Origin: Bacteroidota bacterium
Lineage (GTDB): Bacteria; Bacteroidota; Ignavibacteria; Ignavibacteriales; Ignavibacteriaceae
Assembly (NCBI GenBank): GCA_021824565.1
Contig: JAKAKL010000097.1
Location: 1 to 42,750, forward strand
DNA: 42,750 bases
Reading direction: 5' to 3'
Positions 1 through 42,638 of the stretch are shown piece after piece. The notes beneath the pieces were generated by a model. It was not told the origin of the DNA. It did not search any database and was given only the letters and a program-made list of their open reading frames with translations. The position numbers were made by a program, and so were the translations under genes. Numbering within the stretch: the stretch's first letter is position 1; each line of letters begins with the position of its first letter.

Positions 1-1227
1 GGATATATTTATCACGATATGATGCTTTCAAGACTGCTTGAATTAGTTGATGAAGATACAACAATAATTTTAACGTCAGATCACGGCTTTCATTCAGATC
101 ATCTGCGTCCAAAGGGAATTCCAAACGAGCCTGCCGGACCTGCTTGGGAACATAGAAGTTATGGAATCTTTTGTATGAAAGGACCAGGAATAAAAAAAGA
201 CGAAAGAATTTACGGAGCTACTTTACTCGATATTGTCCCGACAATATTAACTCTTATGAATTTACCAATCGGCAGGGATATGCCGGGCAAACCTTTGCTG
301 CAGGCATTTGAAGAAATACCTGAAGTTCAATTTGTAGACAGCTGGGAACAAATTGAAGGCGACTGCGGTATGCATCCAAAGGATCTGCAGCGTGACCCGA
401 TTGCAGAACAGGCAGCCATGCAGCAGCTTATAGAATTAGGCTATATTCAAAAACCTGATGAGAATGTTGCTAAGAACATTGAGAGTACAGTAACTGAATC
501 AAAGTTCTACCTGGCGCGTGTTTATATGAATAAAAATAATTTTTCTGATGCCCTTCCAGTATTAGAAGAAATTTATACAAAGTATCCAGATCAGGTAAGA
601 TTTGCTTTTAATTACGCCAAATGCCTCGACAGTCTTGGTAAGCTGGAAGAGGCTTTCTCTGTTGTACAGAAAATTATTGAGAATGAAAAAAAGGAATATC
701 CTCAATTATTTTTGCTTCAAGGGACATTAGAGTATGCCCGTAAAAATTACGATCAAGCACTTTACTACCTGGGTAAAGCAGAGAAAGCAGATTCAAACCT
801 TCCGCAGTTATATCAGCAGATCGGGTTTGTTTATTTGAACATGAGGAGACCGAAGGATGCTGAAGCAGCATTAACTAAAGCGCTGGAGAACGATCCTGAA
901 AATGCTCAGGCTCATTACGGTCTTGCTCTTACTATGTTTAGGCTAAAAGAATACGAGAAGTGCGCCGAGTATTCTCTGAATGCCGTCGGGCTTCTTTATC
1001 ATTTCCCAAAGGCGCATTTAAGCCTCGGTATGGCATTAGCTAAACTTGGTATGTATGAGCGGGCTATTGAAGCTTTTGAAGTTTGTCTAAGAATGACTCC
1101 CGGTTTAATGGCTGCCCATAAATACCTGAGCTATATTTATCTTGTTAAGCTGAGAGATAAAGAAAAAGCTAATTTACACATAGAAGCTCTAAAAAACCTA
1201 AGAGAAAGGAAAACAGCAGCAGCTTGA
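1..1227 (+). CDS. Alkaline-phosphatase-superfamily hydrolase with C-terminal TPR repeats (5' partial)
   Basis: The reading frame is open from base 1, so the gene begins upstream of the window. The visible N-terminal part is the end of a type I phosphodiesterase/sulfatase-like fold. It has the metal-binding SDHGF motif, then EHRSYGIF, whose His is the expected second-metal ligand, then a GATLLDIVPTIL segment typical of the end of the family's core. From about codon 165 the protein turns into repeated 34-residue helical pairs (for example ALYYLGKAEKADSNLPQLY and AEAALTKALENDPENAQAHY), which are tetratricopeptide repeats. The substrate cannot be read from the sequence. The next gene, a sulfotransferase, starts inside its stop codon, and PAPS-synthesis genes follow. 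A role in sulfate- or phosphate-ester turnover linked to sulfation is therefore a reasonable inference. The superfamily call is firm; the specific activity is unknown. Confidence 0.8.
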   Translation, partial: GYIYHDMMLSRLLELVDEDTTIILTSDHGFHSDHLRPKGIPNEPAGPAWEHRSYGIFCMKGPGIKKDERIYGATLLDIVPTILTLMNLPIGRDMPGKPLLQAFEEIPEVQFVDSWEQIEGDCGMHPKDLQRDPIAEQAAMQQLIELGYIQKPDENVAKNIESTVTESKFYLARVYMNKNNFSDALPVLEEIYTKYPDQVRFAFNYAKCLDSLGKLEEAFSVVQKIIENEKKEYPQLFLLQGTLEYARKNYDQALYYLGKAEKADSNLPQLYQQIGFVYLNMRRPKDAEAALTKALENDPENAQAHYGLALTMFRLKEYEKCAEYSLNAVGLLYHFPKAHLSLGMALAKLGMYERAIEAFEVCLRMTPGLMAAHKYLSYIYLVKLRDKEKANLHIEALKNLRERKTAAA

Positions 1228-1790
1228 TTACCGTAGTTACCGGGCTTCCTCGAAGCGGCACATCATTGATGATGCAGCTTCTTGAAGCAGGCGGAATGGA
1301 AATATTAACAGATAACATTCGACAGCCTGATGCAAATAATCCAAGAGGTTATTTCGAATATGAAAAAGTAAAAGTTCTGCCAAATGATAACACATGGATA
1401 AATGCGGCAGAAGGCAAAGCAGTAAAAATTATTGTTCAGCTTTTAACGTACCTTCCTATTGACCGGCAATATTCAATTATTCTTATGGAGAGAGATACCG
1501 ATGAGATTATAATGTCTCAGAATAAAATGATTGAAAGTTTGGGCGGCAGTAAGCCAAGCATTGCGATCAGTGTATTGAAGCAGACGTTTATCAATCAGTA
1601 TGAAAAAGCAGAAAGATACTTATTGGAAAATAAATGTTTCAATGTCTTCAAAGTAAATTACAATAAGCTGGTAGCAGGTGAAGATGAAATTATTGCCGGG
1701 TTAAATATTAAATTAAATCTTAATCTGGATATCGGCAAGTCAATACCGGTTATTGATGGTTCGCTATATAGGAACAGAATAATAAAATAG
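1224..1790 (+). CDS. Short PAPS-dependent sulfotransferase-like protein
   Basis: The protein opens with VVTGLPRSGTSLMMQLL, the 5'-phosphosulfate-binding loop of the sulfotransferase family, here G-L-P-R-S-G-T-S. A later stretch, YSIILMERDTDEIIMSQ, resembles the 3'-phosphate-binding segment, where an R-D pair is followed by a helix. These enzymes move sulfate from PAPS to a hydroxyl or amine of a sugar, lipid or peptide. At 188 residues it is shorter than most relatives (250-300), so the acceptor-binding part is reduced. The proposed TTG start overlaps the TGA stop of the upstream gene (TTGA), which indicates translational coupling. PAPS-forming genes follow on the same strand after about 230 bases. 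The acceptor is unknown. Confidence 0.75.
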   Translation: MITVVTGLPRSGTSLMMQLLEAGGMEILTDNIRQPDANNPRGYFEYEKVKVLPNDNTWINAAEGKAVKIIVQLLTYLPIDRQYSIILMERDTDEIIMSQNKMIESLGGSKPSIAISVLKQTFINQYEKAERYLLENKCFNVFKVNYNKLVAGEDEIIAGLNIKLNLNLDIGKSIPVIDGSLYRNRIIK

Positions 1791-1996
1791 GACTACAGTT
1801 GAAAATTTGATCTTGAAAAAGATTTGTTTTAATTGTACCAATGATACCGATAAATGGAAAGAACATGATCTGCTTTTGTGTTATACTCAATTCACCGAAG
1901 AACTATTATTATGGGCTTTAATCACATAATAAATATTATTCTGTATTTATTTTAAGGGGAGAGTTTGCGGATAGCGAATGACTTCATTTTATAAAT

Positions 1997-2009
1997 ATTC
2001 TCTGAGAAT
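1997..2009. promoter_or_regulatory. Small palindrome just upstream of cysC
   Basis: ATTCTC-T-GAGAAT is a perfect 6-1-6 inverted repeat ending 15 bases before the cysC start. A symmetrical site in this place could be an operator, but a 13-base palindrome can arise by chance in AT-rich DNA. No regulator is known for it. The rest of the 234-base gap between the sulfotransferase and cysC holds no convincing gene. Confidence 0.2.
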
Positions 2010-2024
2010 GCAGAATTATTTTAT

Positions 2025-2612
2025 ATGCAGTATTCTACCGAATTAATTAATTATAAAAACCGAAACAAAATAAAACGCAATGAAGCAGCCTGCATCTGGT
2101 TTACGGGATTGTCTGGCAGTGGGAAATCTACATTAGCATCCGGAGTTCAGATCGAACTTAACAATAGAAGTATCAATACTTTTCTTTTGGACGGAGATAT
2201 TATAAGAAAGGGACTAAACAAAGATCTTGGATTCAGCGATAGAGACAGGACTGAGAATATCAGGCGTATAGGGGAAGTTACTAAATTATTTACTGATGCG
2301 GGATTGATTGTACTTACAGCATTTATTTCACCTTTTAAGAAAGACCGCAAATCTGCAAGAGCACTGCATGAAAGGAATAAATTTATAGAAGTCTTTGTGG
2401 ATTGCAGTATTGAAGATTGCGCAGATAGAGATGTAAAAGGATTATATAAGAAAGCCAGAGCAGGTGAGATTAAGGAATTTACCGGCATTTCATCGCCATA
2501 TGAAATTCCAGAAAGCCCGGAAATTATTATTCAGAACGGAAATGGTTCAGATTTAAATAAAAACATTCAAACAATTATAGACTATCTGCTTGAAAATAAA
2601 ATTATAAAATGA
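2025..2612 (+). CDS. cysC: Adenylyl-sulfate (APS) kinase
   Basis: This enzyme phosphorylates APS at the 3' position with ATP to give PAPS, the sulfate donor of sulfotransferases. The P-loop GLSGSGKST lies at residues 28-36. It is followed by LLDGDIIRKGLNKDLGFS and DRDRTENIRRIGEV, the standard APS-binding region, and then LFTDAGLIVLTAFISPF. All family motifs are intact and 195 residues is the normal length. The ATG at 2025 has no clear ribosome-binding site, but the preceding frame offers no better start. The gene sits between the sulfotransferase and cysD/cysN in one orientation. It is probably the active kinase of the cluster, since the kinase-like domain fused to CysN has lost key residues. 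Confidence 0.95.
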   Translation: MQYSTELINYKNRNKIKRNEAACIWFTGLSGSGKSTLASGVQIELNNRSINTFLLDGDIIRKGLNKDLGFSDRDRTENIRRIGEVTKLFTDAGLIVLTAFISPFKKDRKSARALHERNKFIEVFVDCSIEDCADRDVKGLYKKARAGEIKEFTGISSPYEIPESPEIIIQNGNGSDLNKNIQTIIDYLLENKIIK

Positions 2613-36900: not shown

Positions 36901-38892
36901 ATGGATGCCGAGACCGGAGTTAAAAAACTAAAAAATATAATTATTGGCGGAGCACGAGATCCGCATGACCACAAAATATTCCATAAGCTTTCGCTTATAG
37001 CATTCTTGGCTTGGGTTGGATTAGGTTCCGATGGACTTTCATCATCATGTTACGGTCCGGCTGAAGCATTTAAAGCTTTAGAAGGACATCCGTATCTCGG
37101 TATCTTTGTTGCCTTAGGATCGGCGGCGACAATTTTTATAATTGCAGCAAGCTACTCTCATATAATTGAATTATTTCCTTCCGGCGGCGGCGGTTATCTT
37201 GTAGCAAGCAAACTTCTTTCACCAAAGGTTGGAATGATTTCAGGGTGCGCGCTATTAATCGACTATGTTTTGACGATAACAATTTCTATCGCAAGCGGAG
37301 CAGACGCAATATTCAGTTTCATGCCGCCGCAGTACTACCAATTTAAATTAGAATTTGCAGTAATCGGAGTTTTAATCTTATTGGTTCTAAATATTAGAGG
37401 GATCAAAGAAGCTGTAGTTCCGCTGGTGCCGGTGTTCATGTTATTTGTTGTTACGCATATCTTCGCAATTTCTTACGCGCTTATAACTCATGGCTACGAA
37501 TACCATCAGGTTATTCATTCTACCGGCAGTGAGCTGTCGAAATCATTTAGCACACTCGGAATGTTCGGAGTATTATTTCTTGTTATGCGTGCTTATAGTA
37601 TGGGTGCAGGAACTTTTACAGGTATTGAAGCGGTAAGCAACGGTATTCCTATTTTGCGAGAGCCAAGAGTCCATACAGCGAAGAGAACTATGAACTACAT
37701 GGCGTTCTCTCTTTCAATAACTGTAGTCGGTCTGATGATTGCGTACTTGCTTTATAATGTTGAAGCTACTCCGGGAAAAACTTTAAATGCTATCTTCTTT
37801 GAAAGAATGTCAAGCGGCTGGGGCGGCGGAGCATCATTCTATTTTGTATTGATAACACTTTTGTCAGAAGCCATACTTCTATTCATTGCAGCGCAGACAG
37901 GATTTTTAGATGGTCCCCGCGTACTTGCTAATATGGCTCTGGATAGATGGTTCCCAACAAGGTTTGCAAACTTGAGCGACCGCCTTGTTACTCAAAACGG
38001 AATTCTTCTTATGGGCGTTGCGTCTTTGCTAATGATGCTTGCTTCTAAAGGTTCGGTCGATTTTTTAATAGTCTTATATTCAATTAACGTATTTATCACA
38101 TTCAGCCTTTCGCAGCTTGGTATGGTTAAACACTGGTGGCAGGAAAGAAAGACCGAGAAGAGATGGTTTAGAAACCTTTCAATTAATGGGATAGGATTAA
38201 TTTTAACTTCTTTTATTTTAATCTCAGTATTGATTATAAAATTTGGCGAAGGCGGATGGATTACATTAGTCATTACTGCCGGGCTTGTTGCACTTACACT
38301 TGTCATAAAAAACCATTACAATAAAACTCATGAGCTAATAAGAAAGTTAGATACAATAGTTGATTCGTTTGAAGCTTCAATTTATGATATGGACAGTGAA
38401 GAGAGCCTAAAGAAAAAGGTTCCGGAATTTGATCCCAAAGGAAAAACGGCTGCAATATTAGTAAATGGATTTAATGGTCTAGGACTTCATACTCTTTTCA
38501 GCATATTCAGGCTGTTTAGTAATACATATAAGAATTTTGTTTTCATTCAAGTTGGGAGCATTGACGCCGGTAATTTTAAAGGCGCAGACGAAATAGAAAA
38601 TCTCGGCAGTTATATTAGCGATGAAGCCAATCGTTACGTAAGATATATGAACGAGCACGGCTACTACGCAGAAGCATTTACGTCCGTAGGTACAGATGTG
38701 GTGGAAGAAATTGAAAACATGGTTCCAAAAATTAACAGCAAATTTTCTCATGTAATATATTTTGGCGGACAAATTGTTTTTCCCGAAGAGTCATTCCTTA
38801 CCCGCTGGCTTCATAATTATATTGTGTTTGCTGTTCAGAGGAAATTTTACCGACAGGGTGTGCCTATGGTAATCTTGCCGATAAGAATTTAA
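36901..38892 (+). CDS. APC-family permease related to the KimA potassium importer
   Basis: The first 460 residues form about 12 membrane helices of the APC superfamily. Several blocks match KimA/YdaO: GLGSDGLSSSCYGPAEAF, PSGGGGYLVASKLLSP, LIDYVLTITISIASGADAI, VLNIRGIKEAVVP, GTFTGIEAVSNGIPIL, AAQTGFLDGPRVLANMALDR and SINVFITFSLSQLGM. KimA imports potassium with protons and is inhibited by c-di-AMP in Firmicutes. Residues from about 490 to 663 form a soluble C-terminal domain (AAILVNGFNGLGLHTLFSIF, and HVIYFGGQIVFPEES) that may be regulatory. Potassium as the substrate is an inference; amino acids are the alternative. It converges with the 698-residue membrane protein gene, six bases apart. Confidence 0.83.
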   Translation: MDAETGVKKLKNIIIGGARDPHDHKIFHKLSLIAFLAWVGLGSDGLSSSCYGPAEAFKALEGHPYLGIFVALGSAATIFIIAASYSHIIELFPSGGGGYLVASKLLSPKVGMISGCALLIDYVLTITISIASGADAIFSFMPPQYYQFKLEFAVIGVLILLVLNIRGIKEAVVPLVPVFMLFVVTHIFAISYALITHGYEYHQVIHSTGSELSKSFSTLGMFGVLFLVMRAYSMGAGTFTGIEAVSNGIPILREPRVHTAKRTMNYMAFSLSITVVGLMIAYLLYNVEATPGKTLNAIFFERMSSGWGGGASFYFVLITLLSEAILLFIAAQTGFLDGPRVLANMALDRWFPTRFANLSDRLVTQNGILLMGVASLLMMLASKGSVDFLIVLYSINVFITFSLSQLGMVKHWWQERKTEKRWFRNLSINGIGLILTSFILISVLIIKFGEGGWITLVITAGLVALTLVIKNHYNKTHELIRKLDTIVDSFEASIYDMDSEESLKKKVPEFDPKGKTAAILVNGFNGLGLHTLFSIFRLFSNTYKNFVFIQVGSIDAGNFKGADEIENLGSYISDEANRYVRYMNEHGYYAEAFTSVGTDVVEEIENMVPKINSKFSHVIYFGGQIVFPEESFLTRWLHNYIVFAVQRKFYRQGVPMVILPIRI

Positions 38893-38898
38893 AAGATT

Positions 38899-40995
38899 TT
38901 AGTTAAGATCGTTTTTATGAACGAAGTTTTTCCCATTCCAATATAGAATCTGGTCTTCCAATAACTTACAATATTGCGGTGTGTCGGTAAAAGGAGGTTG
39001 AAGTATTCCGTGTGCGACCGCCGTATCTCTTTCCAGCCTGAAATTACTGTCTACGACTATTGACATATCCTTAAAATTATAATCAAGTCTATAGTCAAGG
39101 CTCGATTCATAATATTGTTTTTCGCAAGTTACAAAGTGAATCTTCCTTTCTTTTTCCGAATCGTGTAAGCTGCCCGGTTCTATACAGCCTCCTCTAAAAA
39201 CAGTAAAGTGTTTTAAGTAATCGGTTTCCGGAATTAAAATATAGAAATTTAAATCCGCAGGTTTCATATTCAAAAAAGTATAGTAGGGTGTAGAAGGAGA
39301 ATAGCCGGCAAGTTTATTTAATTCAACTCCGCCGATAAATGCTCTTTCGTATCCATTATTAGAGCCGACAAAAATAATAAGATCTTTGTGATCAGGCATT
39401 CTTTGTATTATCCCTTCATTAATATGCCCTGAATTCCAAAAGGCAGTTCCTACTCTTTTGCCGCTTTTTAAATCAAGTGTGAAGATCGCGGAAGAAAATG
39501 ATGGACCGTTGGTTGCTTTTGCTACTAATAATTTCTCGCCTTGATATGTAGCAGTATCAATTAAACCGCAGCTATATACCGGCTCAAGATTTTCGCCGTA
39601 AGATTTTACGGTATCCTTAAAATCATAGTGCCACAATTGTTTCCCTAAATAATTATAGCAGAAAATGCCGCCGTATTCTTTTTTATTTTTAAGATCGGGC
39701 AGGATAACTCCACTTAAAACGACTTCATTTTTTTTATCGTTATTTACATCAACAATCTTGGCATTATACCTAAGTGTAGAGGAAGCGAATTGCGGGTCTA
39801 TCTCTATTCCTTTCGACCAAAGAACTTTTCCGCTGCTGTTTTCAACAAACAAATTATTTCCATGCACGTATAATAAAGCGGGGTTGTTGTCAAAATTAAA
39901 AAGATAAAAATAAATTATTACAATGACTAAAATTAACAGCGAGGCACTGAGTGGTAAATTTTGTTTAACAATTTTTAAACCTCGAACGGCAGCGTTCTGT
40001 TCTTTTATATCCACCAGGTTTCTGCGGTTCAGTAAATCCTGCAAAGTGCTGACACCAATTATTTCAAGATTACGGTTAGGGTAGTTTTTTTTAAGCTCAT
40101 TAAGTTTTTCAACTGCCCATTGCTTGCTTTCTTCCGGAACAACAAAACTTTTTGCGGTTGAATAAAAGACCATCGAAACTTTATTTTCGATAGTCTCTTT
40201 TCCAATTGATAAAAATGATTTATTATTTTCAAATCCGCCAGTTATTGTTATCCCGTTTTTAATCGAAATCGAAAATGGGAAATTATAAAGCGAGATTATT
40301 CCTTGAATAAATTCTAAAGTAAGCGCCGCTCCTAATGAAAAGCCGGTGTAGTTTCCATAGCGATGATCAAAATTAATAACAATTTTATGAAATCTACCTA
40401 TCTTAGCATAATGCTGCTTTACAAAGTTGTAGGCAATATCCCATGAAATATGTACCTGTTCAAATAAAGATTGTGCAGATGATTCGTATGATGGAACAAC
40501 GATAAATTCGTCTTTGTCTTTTGAACGGCTAATGTCAATTGTGAAGGTTTCAAGCGCACCGATGGGGATTTGATTATTTATGCCTGCGGAACTTTCTACC
40601 AGAGGAAACAATAATTTATTATTTCTCTCCTCAATCCCTTCTTCGCCGTTAAGGATTTTGTAAAGAATAGTAAGCTTAGAACTTAAACTACTGACAAGTT
40701 TTTCTATTCTTAAAGTATAACTCTCCGCGGAAGCAATTTCTTTAAGAACATTTAATTGATTAATAATTTCGTAGGTAATATCCGGCGGGAAACAAAATAC
40801 TTCAAAGCGCTCAACGCATTCTAAGTATTCGGAAATAAATTCAGCAATGTACGAATCAATTATGGAATTATTTTTCGATCCCAAAACTGCAGAGTAAAAA
40901 TCTTTAATAAAAAATAATCTTTGTCTGCAAGATTTTGATTCTGAAAGAAAATTTAAGACCTTTTGCCTTAATTCTTCTATTTCAAAAACTGTCAT
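38899..40995 (-). CDS. Membrane protein: helical N-terminus, Lon-like protease domain, one TM helix, outer propeller-like domain
   Basis: I do not recognise this protein as a named family. Residues 1-120 are helical. Residues about 150-345 follow the Lon (S16) proteolytic domain: a helix (SLFEQVHISWDIAYNFV), a strand (HKIVINFD), then TGFSLGAALTLEF, where Lon has G-P-S-A-G. GITITGGF and FLSIGKETIENKV come next, where Lon has TGEITLRG and PIGGLKEK, and SFVVPEES, where Lon has VLIPKEN. Ser220 and Lys266 are 46 residues apart, against 43 in E. coli Lon. There is no AAA module. One helix (SASLLILVIVIIYFYLFNF) follows basic residues, so the C-terminal 330 residues lie outside. They carry VDVNNDKKNEVVLSG, an FG-GAP/propeller-type motif. 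The ATG at 40995 has GGGG eight bases upstream. It is the last gene of the cassette. Confidence 0.75.
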   Translation of the reverse strand: MTVFEIEELRQKVLNFLSESKSCRQRLFFIKDFYSAVLGSKNNSIIDSYIAEFISEYLECVERFEVFCFPPDITYEIINQLNVLKEIASAESYTLRIEKLVSSLSSKLTILYKILNGEEGIEERNNKLLFPLVESSAGINNQIPIGALETFTIDISRSKDKDEFIVVPSYESSAQSLFEQVHISWDIAYNFVKQHYAKIGRFHKIVINFDHRYGNYTGFSLGAALTLEFIQGIISLYNFPFSISIKNGITITGGFENNKSFLSIGKETIENKVSMVFYSTAKSFVVPEESKQWAVEKLNELKKNYPNRNLEIIGVSTLQDLLNRRNLVDIKEQNAAVRGLKIVKQNLPLSASLLILVIVIIYFYLFNFDNNPALLYVHGNNLFVENSSGKVLWSKGIEIDPQFASSTLRYNAKIVDVNNDKKNEVVLSGVILPDLKNKKEYGGIFCYNYLGKQLWHYDFKDTVKSYGENLEPVYSCGLIDTATYQGEKLLVAKATNGPSFSSAIFTLDLKSGKRVGTAFWNSGHINEGIIQRMPDHKDLIIFVGSNNGYERAFIGGVELNKLAGYSPSTPYYTFLNMKPADLNFYILIPETDYLKHFTVFRGGCIEPGSLHDSEKERKIHFVTCEKQYYESSLDYRLDYNFKDMSIVVDSNFRLERDTAVAHGILQPPFTDTPQYCKLLEDQILYWNGKNFVHKNDLN

Positions 40996-41034
40996 TAACA
41001 AACCCCGGAAATTGTTCCCTTTAAGCTAATAAAA

Positions 41035-41598
41035 TTATTTGTCTTCCTCAATTAAAATTTTCTGAATAGAATTCTCTTCGTCTATTTCTATCGGTTCCGA
41101 CGGGTTGTTTATTTGATAGGACTTTTGAGACGGGTACAGAGTTATTTTATATCTTGCAGAAGCTTTTTCTTCTTTAGGAAAGAGATATAAAAAATTTTTC
41201 CCGTTTCTTTCAATAAGCCTTATTAGAAATTTAGAGTTGGTGTCGGTAAAAGTAATCGCTTCCGACTGCTTGACCGCTTCAGTTGTTGCGGCGGCAAGCG
41301 TTACTTGTTTTTCCATAAATGATTTTTTCCCTTTTACCGGCAGCAGCACGTCTGCGCTTATTTTTTGTAATATCTCTTCGGCAATGTTCCTGCTTTTTGT
41401 TTTTATGGCAGCATTGTTTTGCGCGTTTAGAATTGATCTGCAGAATTCAATCTGCTCTCTGAACAAGGCTTCATTTTTGCTCAGGTAATTTTTTTTCTCG
41501 GCGTCTAATTCGTCAGGATAAAAGACAAACTTAAAAATATCTTCTTCCATTATATCCATTTTATTTATTGTTATGTCCGGTTTTGGAACTTTGTTCAC
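41035..41598 (-). CDS. Soluble protein of unknown function, anti-sigma-like N-terminus
   Basis: There is no signal peptide or membrane helix in the 187 residues. Near the start, FVFYPDELDAEKKNYLSKNE then FREQIEFCRSI has the spacing of the small anti-sigma helix pair (D-E-L-x-x-E...C-R), but without the zinc-binding His and Cys set. The C-terminal 75 residues are a small beta-rich domain (FLIRLIERNGKNFLYLFPKE, RYKITLYP). The start is uncertain: GTG at 41598 has no ribosome site, while ATG at 41550, with GGA just upstream, would begin MEEDIFKFVFYPDEL. It sits 44 bases after the sigma-like gene and about 40 before the membrane protease-like gene, so it should be made with both. An anti-sigma role is inferred from this and is not proven. 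Confidence 0.65.
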   Translation of the reverse strand: MNKVPKPDITINKMDIMEEDIFKFVFYPDELDAEKKNYLSKNEALFREQIEFCRSILNAQNNAAIKTKSRNIAEEILQKISADVLLPVKGKKSFMEKQVTLAAATTEAVKQSEAITFTDTNSKFLIRLIERNGKNFLYLFPKEEKASARYKITLYPSQKSYQINNPSEPIEIDEENSIQKILIEEDK

Positions 41599-41642
41599 AA
41601 AAAAATATTTTTTTTATATATAAATATTATCCCAAAAAAGTT

Positions 41643-42638
41643 TCAATTGGGAAAAGTTGTATTATTTAATTCTTTAATTATTTCTTTTTTCAATAATCTG
41701 ATTAAATAATCAAAGATATTGTGATACCGCTCTCGCAACTTTTCTTTTGAAACGCCCTGGTAATATGGAAGAAGGTATTCTTCAAGCCCGCGTTTTATCC
41801 CGCCGTCTTTTAAATCGCTTGCAATATCGATCAATGCTTTCTGAAATAACTCGCCGTCTGCCGCTGAAAGAATTTCTTTCTTTACATATTGATCGTTTAG
41901 CTTGTCGAATATTGTTCTTAATGAGTTATTCAAGGCATTATTTATTTCGTAAGCAATTTGTATGTCAGCCGGGTCGGGCTCTTTATATAATAATGCTGCG
42001 TATGCCTGCTTAATCCTAAGCACGAGCAGGTTCAAAGGTATTGCCGGAAAAAAATCAGTATGATTTTTTAGGTAGTTAAACATATCTTCAGTTACGAATT
42101 TTAACTTGTTCAAATAGTTTATATGTATTTGGTCAAAGTTAGCATCGTCGATAAGCTCTTTGTTTATTACCGGATTCTTTGCTTCAACAAGATAGACTTG
42201 CCCGAGATAATATATTTTTTTATAGCCGTTAACTTTTGAAGGATATTCCAGGTCTTTTAGGATTTTCCCAAACATCGGGTCGATCTCTCTTAAGAATTTA
42301 GTCAATGTTTGCTCAACGCGTTTTGAAACTAAAGTAAAGATAAAAAAATCAGCATTAGCAGGCGTTGCGATTTCATTCTTCCAATTATCTATTGATTTTT
42401 TTATGCCGCTCATTTCAATCTTATTGTGGATGATAAACAAGCTTGTAATAGAATCCACAGCAACATCTTCGAACGAATAGCCGTTAATGGAAAATATCCG
42501 CGCTAATTTTGCGTACTTTCTATCAAGAATGGATAATGCTATTGAAGTGCAATGCTCAATAAGCTCGCGCAATTCAGATCTGGTTATTTCACCCGACTTA
42601 ATTTTACCTACATATTTAAAAATGTTTTCCCTTTCCAT
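41643..42638 (-). CDS. Divergent sigma-factor-like protein, first gene of the cassette
   Basis: The 331 residues are almost entirely helical. The N-terminal block ALSILDRKYAKLARIFSINGYSFEDVAVDSITSLF, quoted here only as its layout, has the sigma region 2 pattern: a helix, then a Y-S-F-E-D-V-A turn and a second helix (YSFEDVAVDSITSLFIIHNK). FFIFTLVSKRVEQTLTKFLR then recalls the end of region 2. At the C-terminus, GVSKEKLRERYHNIFDYLIR followed by RLLKKEI resembles the region 4 helix-turn-helix. The 170 residues between are unlike known ECF factors. A clear GGAG ribosome site lies seven bases before the ATG. The two downstream genes follow at 44 and about 40 bases. DNA binding is an inference from pattern only; it could instead be an unrelated helical adaptor. 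Confidence 0.6.
   Translation of the reverse strand: MERENIFKYVGKIKSGEITRSELRELIEHCTSIALSILDRKYAKLARIFSINGYSFEDVAVDSITSLFIIHNKIEMSGIKKSIDNWKNEIATPANADFFIFTLVSKRVEQTLTKFLREIDPMFGKILKDLEYPSKVNGYKKIYYLGQVYLVEAKNPVINKELIDDANFDQIHINYLNKLKFVTEDMFNYLKNHTDFFPAIPLNLLVLRIKQAYAALLYKEPDPADIQIAYEINNALNNSLRTIFDKLNDQYVKKEILSAADGELFQKALIDIASDLKDGGIKRGLEEYLLPYYQGVSKEKLRERYHNIFDYLIRLLKKEIIKELNNTTFPN

Follow-up and report, generated by a model that had tools for sequence, protein, structure and literature searches.

A candidate signalling cassette of Ignavibacteria: a predicted membrane-spanning Lon-type sensor protease encoded with a sigma-like and a soluble anti-sigma-like protein

Introduction

In the BlaR1/BlaI and MecR1/MecI systems a membrane-bound sensor-protease cuts a soluble cytoplasmic regulator, as excerpts of PMC7593790 describe. 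According to the same excerpts, RseA is a membrane-spanning anti-sigma factor on which DegS, RseP and ClpXP act one after another; anti-sigma factors of the cytosol may serve as substrates for soluble ATP-dependent proteases, Lon among them (PMC7593790). Here, we describe a cassette of three adjoining genes, A, B and C, in a stretch of 42,750 nucleotides (the window) that is the entire contig JAKAKL010000097.1 from the 4.6 Mb genome of a Bacteroidota bacterium of the Ignavibacteriaceae (GCA_021824565.1). Gene A (41643..42638) codes for a sigma-like protein of 331 aa, gene B (41035..41598; 187 aa as open reading frame (ORF)) for a soluble anti-sigma-like protein and gene C (38899..41001; 700 aa as ORF) for a Lon-type membrane sensor; these genes and all features within them lie on the minus strand. 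The domain folds, the catalytic residues, the predicted topology, the gene linkage and an exchange between a fused anti-sigma domain and the Lon domain were computed here.

By prediction, C shares with BlaR1 and MecR1 a sensor outside, a membrane span and a protease inside. Unlike these systems, in which an M56 zinc metalloprotease works on a transcriptional repressor, the C cassette comprises a Lon Ser/Lys domain and an anti-sigma/sigma-like pair. By analogy, BlaR1 is the nearest known system in logic, and since the logic of a sensor-protease with a soluble regulator is already known from BlaR1/BlaI, the novelty lies in the combination of parts. As in the RseA/DegS/RseP pathway, an anti-sigma factor would be removed by proteolysis upon an envelope signal, but B is soluble (0 of 64 B proteins have a membrane segment) and it is the protease C that spans the membrane. 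A preliminary description of this DNA had drawn the same contrast to a membrane-spanning RseA cut by several proteases, and it agrees with the excerpts of PMC7593790.

The remaining relatives resemble single parts of the cassette. Class I anti-sigma factors (ASDI/ZAS; RsiW) have in common with Lon-less relatives of C and with 18 of the 64 B proteins the motif H-x3-C-x2-C, whereas the window B is without zinc ligands and has a membrane Lon protease as its partner. Lon proteases (S16) share with C the P-domain fold and the catalytic dyad; unlike them, C has no AAA+ module that we could find and carries a membrane span and an attached sensor domain. Beside YlbL, SepM is another PDZ-Lon membrane protease. 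YlbL has no AAA+ module, possesses a Ser-Lys dyad and is probably extracellular according to its authors (excerpts of PMC6051672). In the same study YlbL was inactive once its membrane part had been removed, so that Lon fragments in soluble form may lack activity. As far as these excerpts go, C is likewise a membrane-anchored Lon domain without AAA+ and with a Ser-Lys dyad; unlike YlbL with its outside location and PDZ domain, C has its Lon domain predicted inside, a propeller outside and sigma-like and anti-sigma genes adjoining. Among the titles and abstract openings listed from the open-access literature we found no description of a membrane Lon protease paired with sigma/anti-sigma genes, which does not imply absence from print; the papers that mention both FG-GAP and anti-sigma have no title about such a system.

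Results

The three genes follow each other in the order A-B-C, as the preliminary description had it, with intergenic gaps of 44 bp (A/B) and 33 bp (B/C). From the alignment of homologues, B probably starts at the ATG at 41559 (174 aa) and C probably at the ATG at 40995 (698 aa). Searched singly, A, B and C gave no Pfam or NCBIfam model above the cut-off. The same genome carries three additional copies of C, and a B-like and an A-like gene adjoin each of them. Linkage in relatives was counted for full-length Lon-bearing sensors for which profiles detected both A and B in the stretch fetched (n = 59). All three genes are on one strand in 59/59 and inside 2 kb in 50/59, 37 in the order A-B-C and 13 in the order C-A-B. 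Because of the cassette copies in the same genome and the same-strand co-occurrence in relatives, a chance neighbourhood was rejected; that the genes occur together in relatives, as the preliminary description had demanded, is indeed the case.

The AlphaFold2 model of C (pLDDT 85.5, pTM 0.51; 12 sequences) begins with a helical domain (residues 1-118; 40642..40995), followed by a Lon P-domain (residues 123-333; 39997..40629). Foldseek matched the model to a Lon protease fold (E 1.1e-9) and VIA to a Lon P-domain (Z 19.3, root-mean-square deviation (rmsd) 2.6, 180 residues). A search of PDB sequences with the single protein gave nothing useful; a profile of 26 homologues searched against the PDB found the proteolytic domain of A. 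fulgidus Lon (1z0e, E 8.3e-6). In this alignment the Ser and Lys of A. fulgidus Lon, which we take to be the catalytic S509 and K552, fall on the Ser and Lys of the C family. In C these are the predicted catalytic residues Ser220 (40336..40338) and Lys272 (40180..40182), whose codons were checked. Column conservation was determined from 91 aligned stretches of 89 proteins, with 208 columns having at least 60 letters. Ser220 is present in 88/88 letters (3 gap rows) and Lys272 in 87/87 (4 gap rows), and the two are the sole fully invariant columns among the 208. The invariance of the dyad argues, at the level of sequence, for a working protease; a Lon-like relic was rejected for the same reason. 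There is no room for an AAA+ module in the chain, since just the 118 residues of the helical domain precede the P-domain, which are too few. Pfam gave no AAA family in C either, a weak test given that Pfam missed the Lon domain as well. For want of an AAA+ module we did not file C as LonA or LonB.

The sole hydrophobic segment found in C, the predicted transmembrane helix (39898..39957), follows the Lon domain and is in the same place in relatives: all 90 full-length Lon-bearing proteins have it where expected, and 12 of the 90 have a further segment. Lysine and arginine (K+R) are in excess on the N side of the segment in 83/90 and in deficit in 2. Following the positive-inside rule, the Lon domain is predicted to be cytoplasmic because of this distribution. 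The part beyond the membrane (38902..39891) is a propeller-like sensor of FG-GAP-type repeats, predicted to be extracytoplasmic. FG-GAP_3 (PF13517) was found in 13 of 26 C homologues at E up to 1, and in none of the window C sequence itself; a comparison of the C propeller with that of fused anti-sigma proteins (see below) gave 100% and E 1.2e-45 with hhalign. A single-pass membrane protein with a Lon-type domain inside and a propeller-like domain outside, as read from the DNA by the preliminary description, is thus upheld by the single segment, by the fold match with its Ser-Lys dyad and charge distribution, and by the FG-GAP repeat families, respectively.

The sensor is exchangeable: in some lineages Laminin_G_3 takes the place of the propeller, as it does in each of the four Lon proteins tested at about 1020 aa (L119, L120, L121, L122). 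Lon-type membrane proteins of similar size (about 1020-1060 aa) are also encoded in stretches L257, L258 and L259. Tandem arrays of 2-4 C-type genes are found near A and B genes in L143, L202, L209, L121 and L261.

The most telling evidence comes from relatives of C that lack the Lon domain. Both the Lon-less and the Lon-bearing stretches were selected among the search hits according to length and span of domains, with no regard to the zinc motif, and are a non-random sample. The Lon-less set consists of 43 fetched sensors of 440-520 aa with the same propeller. Near their N-terminus they have H-x3-C-x2-C in 43/43 cases (35/35 without the 8 that first showed the motif), and this family has only six invariant columns, among them H42, C46 and C49. 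The N-terminal region of the family profile, searched against the PDB, matched RsiW (5wuq_C) with an E of 0.015; a weaker match (E 0.73) is 3hug_B, which is named 'probable conserved membrane protein' in the PDB and which we take to be an anti-sigma factor; stronger PDB matches of this profile are to the propeller part. zf-HC2 was detected in 22 of the 43 at E up to 0.5, the best being 0.0034. Among 93 Lon-bearing proteins, the zinc anti-sigma domain was found in none. Conversely, a separate B gene accompanies none of the 43 Lon-less sensors vs 70 of the 90 full-length Lon-bearing proteins (61 by profile, 9 by position beside A); away from contig ends, B is beside 59/71 Lon sensors and A beside 61/71. 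An A-family gene is within 2 kb of 42/43 Lon-less sensors, the remaining one being at a contig end, and at most 300 bp upstream in 39/43. From these counts, judged by sequence, the anti-sigma domain either shares one chain with the sensor or is a separate protein, in which case the sensor bears a Lon domain. H-x3-C-x2-C is missing from four Lon-less hits outside this size range, each of which lies at a contig end. Stretch L126 (1549-4140, minus strand) encodes a Lon-less protein of 863 aa with two tandem propeller copies, 5' open at the contig end; its anti-sigma-like N-terminus is also without H-x3-C-x2-C.

The N-terminal helical domain of B (41365..41562) resembles the fused anti-sigma domain of the Lon-less proteins when intermediates are used: hhalign gave a probability of 88.6% and an E of 2.6e-6 with 20 B proteins including intermediates. 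B profiles searched against the PDB gave nothing convincing. The zinc ligands are absent from the window B, a loss that is probably derived, since 18/64 B proteins keep H-x3-C-x2-C. Class I anti-sigma domains without zinc are nothing unusual and H-x3-C-x2-C is optional in the class, as stated in excerpts of PMC7406223. A membrane segment, taken as 19 residues scoring above 1.7, was detected in 0/64 B proteins, and the reading of B as a membrane protein was rejected. The domain is followed by a linker with an LAA(A) motif (41287..41298; codons checked). LAA is present within residues 51-120 of 52/64 B proteins vs 2/43 Lon-less sensors in the same residues and vs 2.6 expected from shuffled B, and it may be a cleavage or recognition site.

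The AlphaFold2 model of A (pLDDT 85, pTM 0.78; six sequences) has two parts of interest. Residues 1-120 (42279..42638) resemble sigma region 2; the best match is 7ckq_F (VIA Z 8.2, rmsd 2.8, 92 aligned). RNA-polymerase/sigma entries make up 38 of the top 41 rows of the VIA listing, where for rows whose title does not say so we assume that the matched chain is sigma; the 3 other rows aligned to a different part of A. It is the uniformity of this list, rather than the Z value, that makes the region-2 assignment persuasive. The motif D-[LIV]-A-x-D-x-I-A-x-L-F in this domain is conserved (D58 in 86/95, D62 in 87/95 and F68 in 86/95) and lies in what we take to be the place of sigma region 2.2. Residues 223-326 (41661..41972) form a C-terminal helical domain in the model, at the place expected for sigma region 4. 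In L044 (copy L076) and in L053 the A-family gene is broken into two adjoining ORFs, perhaps by a frameshift or an assembly error.

Discussion

We consider it reasonably probable that the three genes constitute a transmembrane signalling system of the sigma/anti-sigma type, in which the protease-sensor C cuts B on a signal and A is freed. B would be a soluble class-I-type anti-sigma factor that sequesters the sigma-like A. C would cross the membrane once, its propeller facing outward and its Lon P-domain, which lacks AAA+, facing the cytoplasm. A signal reaching the propeller would switch on the Lon domain, which would then cut B, perhaps at the linker bearing the LAA motif, and A would be set free for RNA polymerase. 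The cleavage of B by C, the cut site, the signal and the sigma activity of A are what we infer here. Because C has no unfoldase, B would more likely be clipped in a flexible linker than be degraded completely.

Several observations weigh against this proposal, first of all those on A. A small number of sigma factors recur in many of its 38 sigma rows, its Z of 8.2 falls in the range where VIA warns of chance for helical models, and row 42, a retinoblastoma protein, likewise fits residues 2-119 (Z 5.2). Foldseek, applied to the A model, found no sigma match among the 50 rows listed. No sigma row listed by VIA covers residues 223-326, and for the C-terminal part of A unrelated folds alone are among the VIA rows listed. 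Eight A homologues of 229-252 aa end before the C-terminal ~100 residues; two of them are from the same genome (L036 11228-11986 and L037 7167-7874), the others from L127, L128, L129, L146, L148 and L150. The cassettes with these short homologues otherwise look complete. By sequence, the window A matched no sigma family in Pfam or NCBIfam, 93 A members gave no sigma model among the best 25 of 66 weakly matching Pfam families, and profiles of A searched against the PDB gave nothing convincing. Against the 14 extracytoplasmic function (ECF) sigma factors of the same genome hhalign gave E values of 0.11 and 0.08, which are not significant; both of these weak matches are located in the region-2-like part. 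Of the earlier claim that A is sigma-like, the region-2 fold thus stands (VIA Z 8.2), and the absence of a sigma fold from this 331-residue protein, set beforehand as the refuting test, was not what we found; region 4 is unmatched and there is no sigma family by sequence. For these last two reasons we term A sigma-like, and not a member of the sigma-70 family.

The same findings on A, namely no sigma family by sequence, an unmatched region 4 and short forms, would also agree with A being another DNA- or RNA-polymerase-binding regulator and B its inhibitor, with the protease logic unchanged. We regard this as unlikely in view of the sigma region-2 fold and because, among the Lon-less relatives, A regularly accompanies a zinc anti-sigma domain (42/43 within 2 kb).

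Further points against the release of a sigma-like A by cleavage of B concern the other two proteins and their distribution. Compared with the anti-sigma domain, 15 close B proteins alone gave only 6.5% and an E of 0.0056 with hhalign, a value not far from that of a control in which A was compared with this domain (E 0.056). The earlier reading of B as a soluble anti-sigma-like protein is accordingly secure for solubility (64/64 without a membrane segment), and its anti-sigma part holds via intermediates, the close B alone being weak. The LAA motif may equally be the first (beta) strand of the second half of B, a half that is absent from the fused proteins. C is without an unfoldase. Charge counts decide neither way on the orientation of the Lon-less sensors, with 17 for and 12 against the positive-inside rule (n = 40). 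For 18 of the 90 Lon sensors, 10 of them away from contig ends, no A was found in the fetched stretch, and four further Lon sensors have A without B. Matches to C are patchy, with 4/12 genomes of the same genus.

A second explanation keeps the protease but changes its substrate: the Lon domain would be a turnover enzyme for A or the A-B complex and would end the response by removing the sigma-like protein. A too is encoded beside C, and sigma factors are known protease substrates, for example AntA for ClpXP (in excerpts of PMC8999054). Yet A also stays beside Lon-less sensors (42/43 within 2 kb), where there is no Lon domain to serve it, and it is B, the bearer of the LAA linker, that varies with the Lon domain; we think a turnover function quite unlikely. 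Least likely of all is that the Lon-like domain serves as a docking platform only, with conformational release of B at the membrane without proteolysis: ComM and BrxL, Lon-like folds in proteins not known as proteases, are among the fold matches of C, and in the Lon-less relatives with anti-sigma domain and sensor in one chain tethering alone may suffice, but docking would not demand an invariant Ser (88/88) and Lys (87/87) as the sole invariant columns.

If C indeed cuts B, signal sensing, membrane crossing and anti-sigma proteolysis would be joined in a single protein, a one-step variant of the known multi-protease pathway, and a membrane-bound Lon domain without AAA+ would have a cytoplasmic role. 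It would also point to a sigma-like family that lacks a sigma model in Pfam (among the best 25 of 66 weak families, 93 members) or NCBIfam (window A only). Nature provides a control in the relatives that have the same sensor fused to an anti-sigma domain without a protease, and in which A would have to be released in another way.

In a wider sense, we see about an even chance that the cassette stands for a class of one-step transmembrane signalling that is widespread and undescribed. Its Lon-type sensor-proteases would work independently of ATP, carry interchangeable sensors (propeller or laminin-G) and cut a soluble anti-sigma factor at a conserved LAA linker, thereby releasing sigma-like proteins of a new family that has diverged deeply. 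For this same family, relatives would use fused zinc anti-sigma sensors without a protease, so that one control part was exchanged for the other during evolution, in one direction or the other. Among 391 genomes of the class, 140 have a match to the A profile, as do 53 of 395 in a sample of the phylum, 21 of those outside the class. The C profile matched in 175/391 genomes of the class, Lon-less sensors and weak hits included. Outside the class A, B and C were found by profile in 11 of 20 fetched stretches. Twelve relatives from the scan of the genome collection are metagenome-assembled genomes, labelled Bacteroidetes, Ignavibacteria, Ignavibacteriales, Ignavibacteriaceae, Ignavibacteriae and Ignavibacteriota.

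It speaks for the proposal that a profile of the 14 ECF factors of the same genome detected no ECF gene closer than 3 kb to a sensor in the 136 stretches, the nearest being 4.9 kb away. Stretch L207 has to be set against the proposal: there, at 221-1222 (minus strand) and 1567-2175 (plus strand), an A-family gene has an ECF-like neighbour at a distance of about 350 bp, with no sensor in the stretch. Scans around the genes of the window gave no excess of promoters (12 vs 15.2 in shuffles) or terminators (4 vs 3.4 in shuffles). The neighbouring gene at 36901-38892 on the plus strand codes for an amino-acid permease family protein (PF13520) and is convergent with C, the two gene ends being 6 bp apart.

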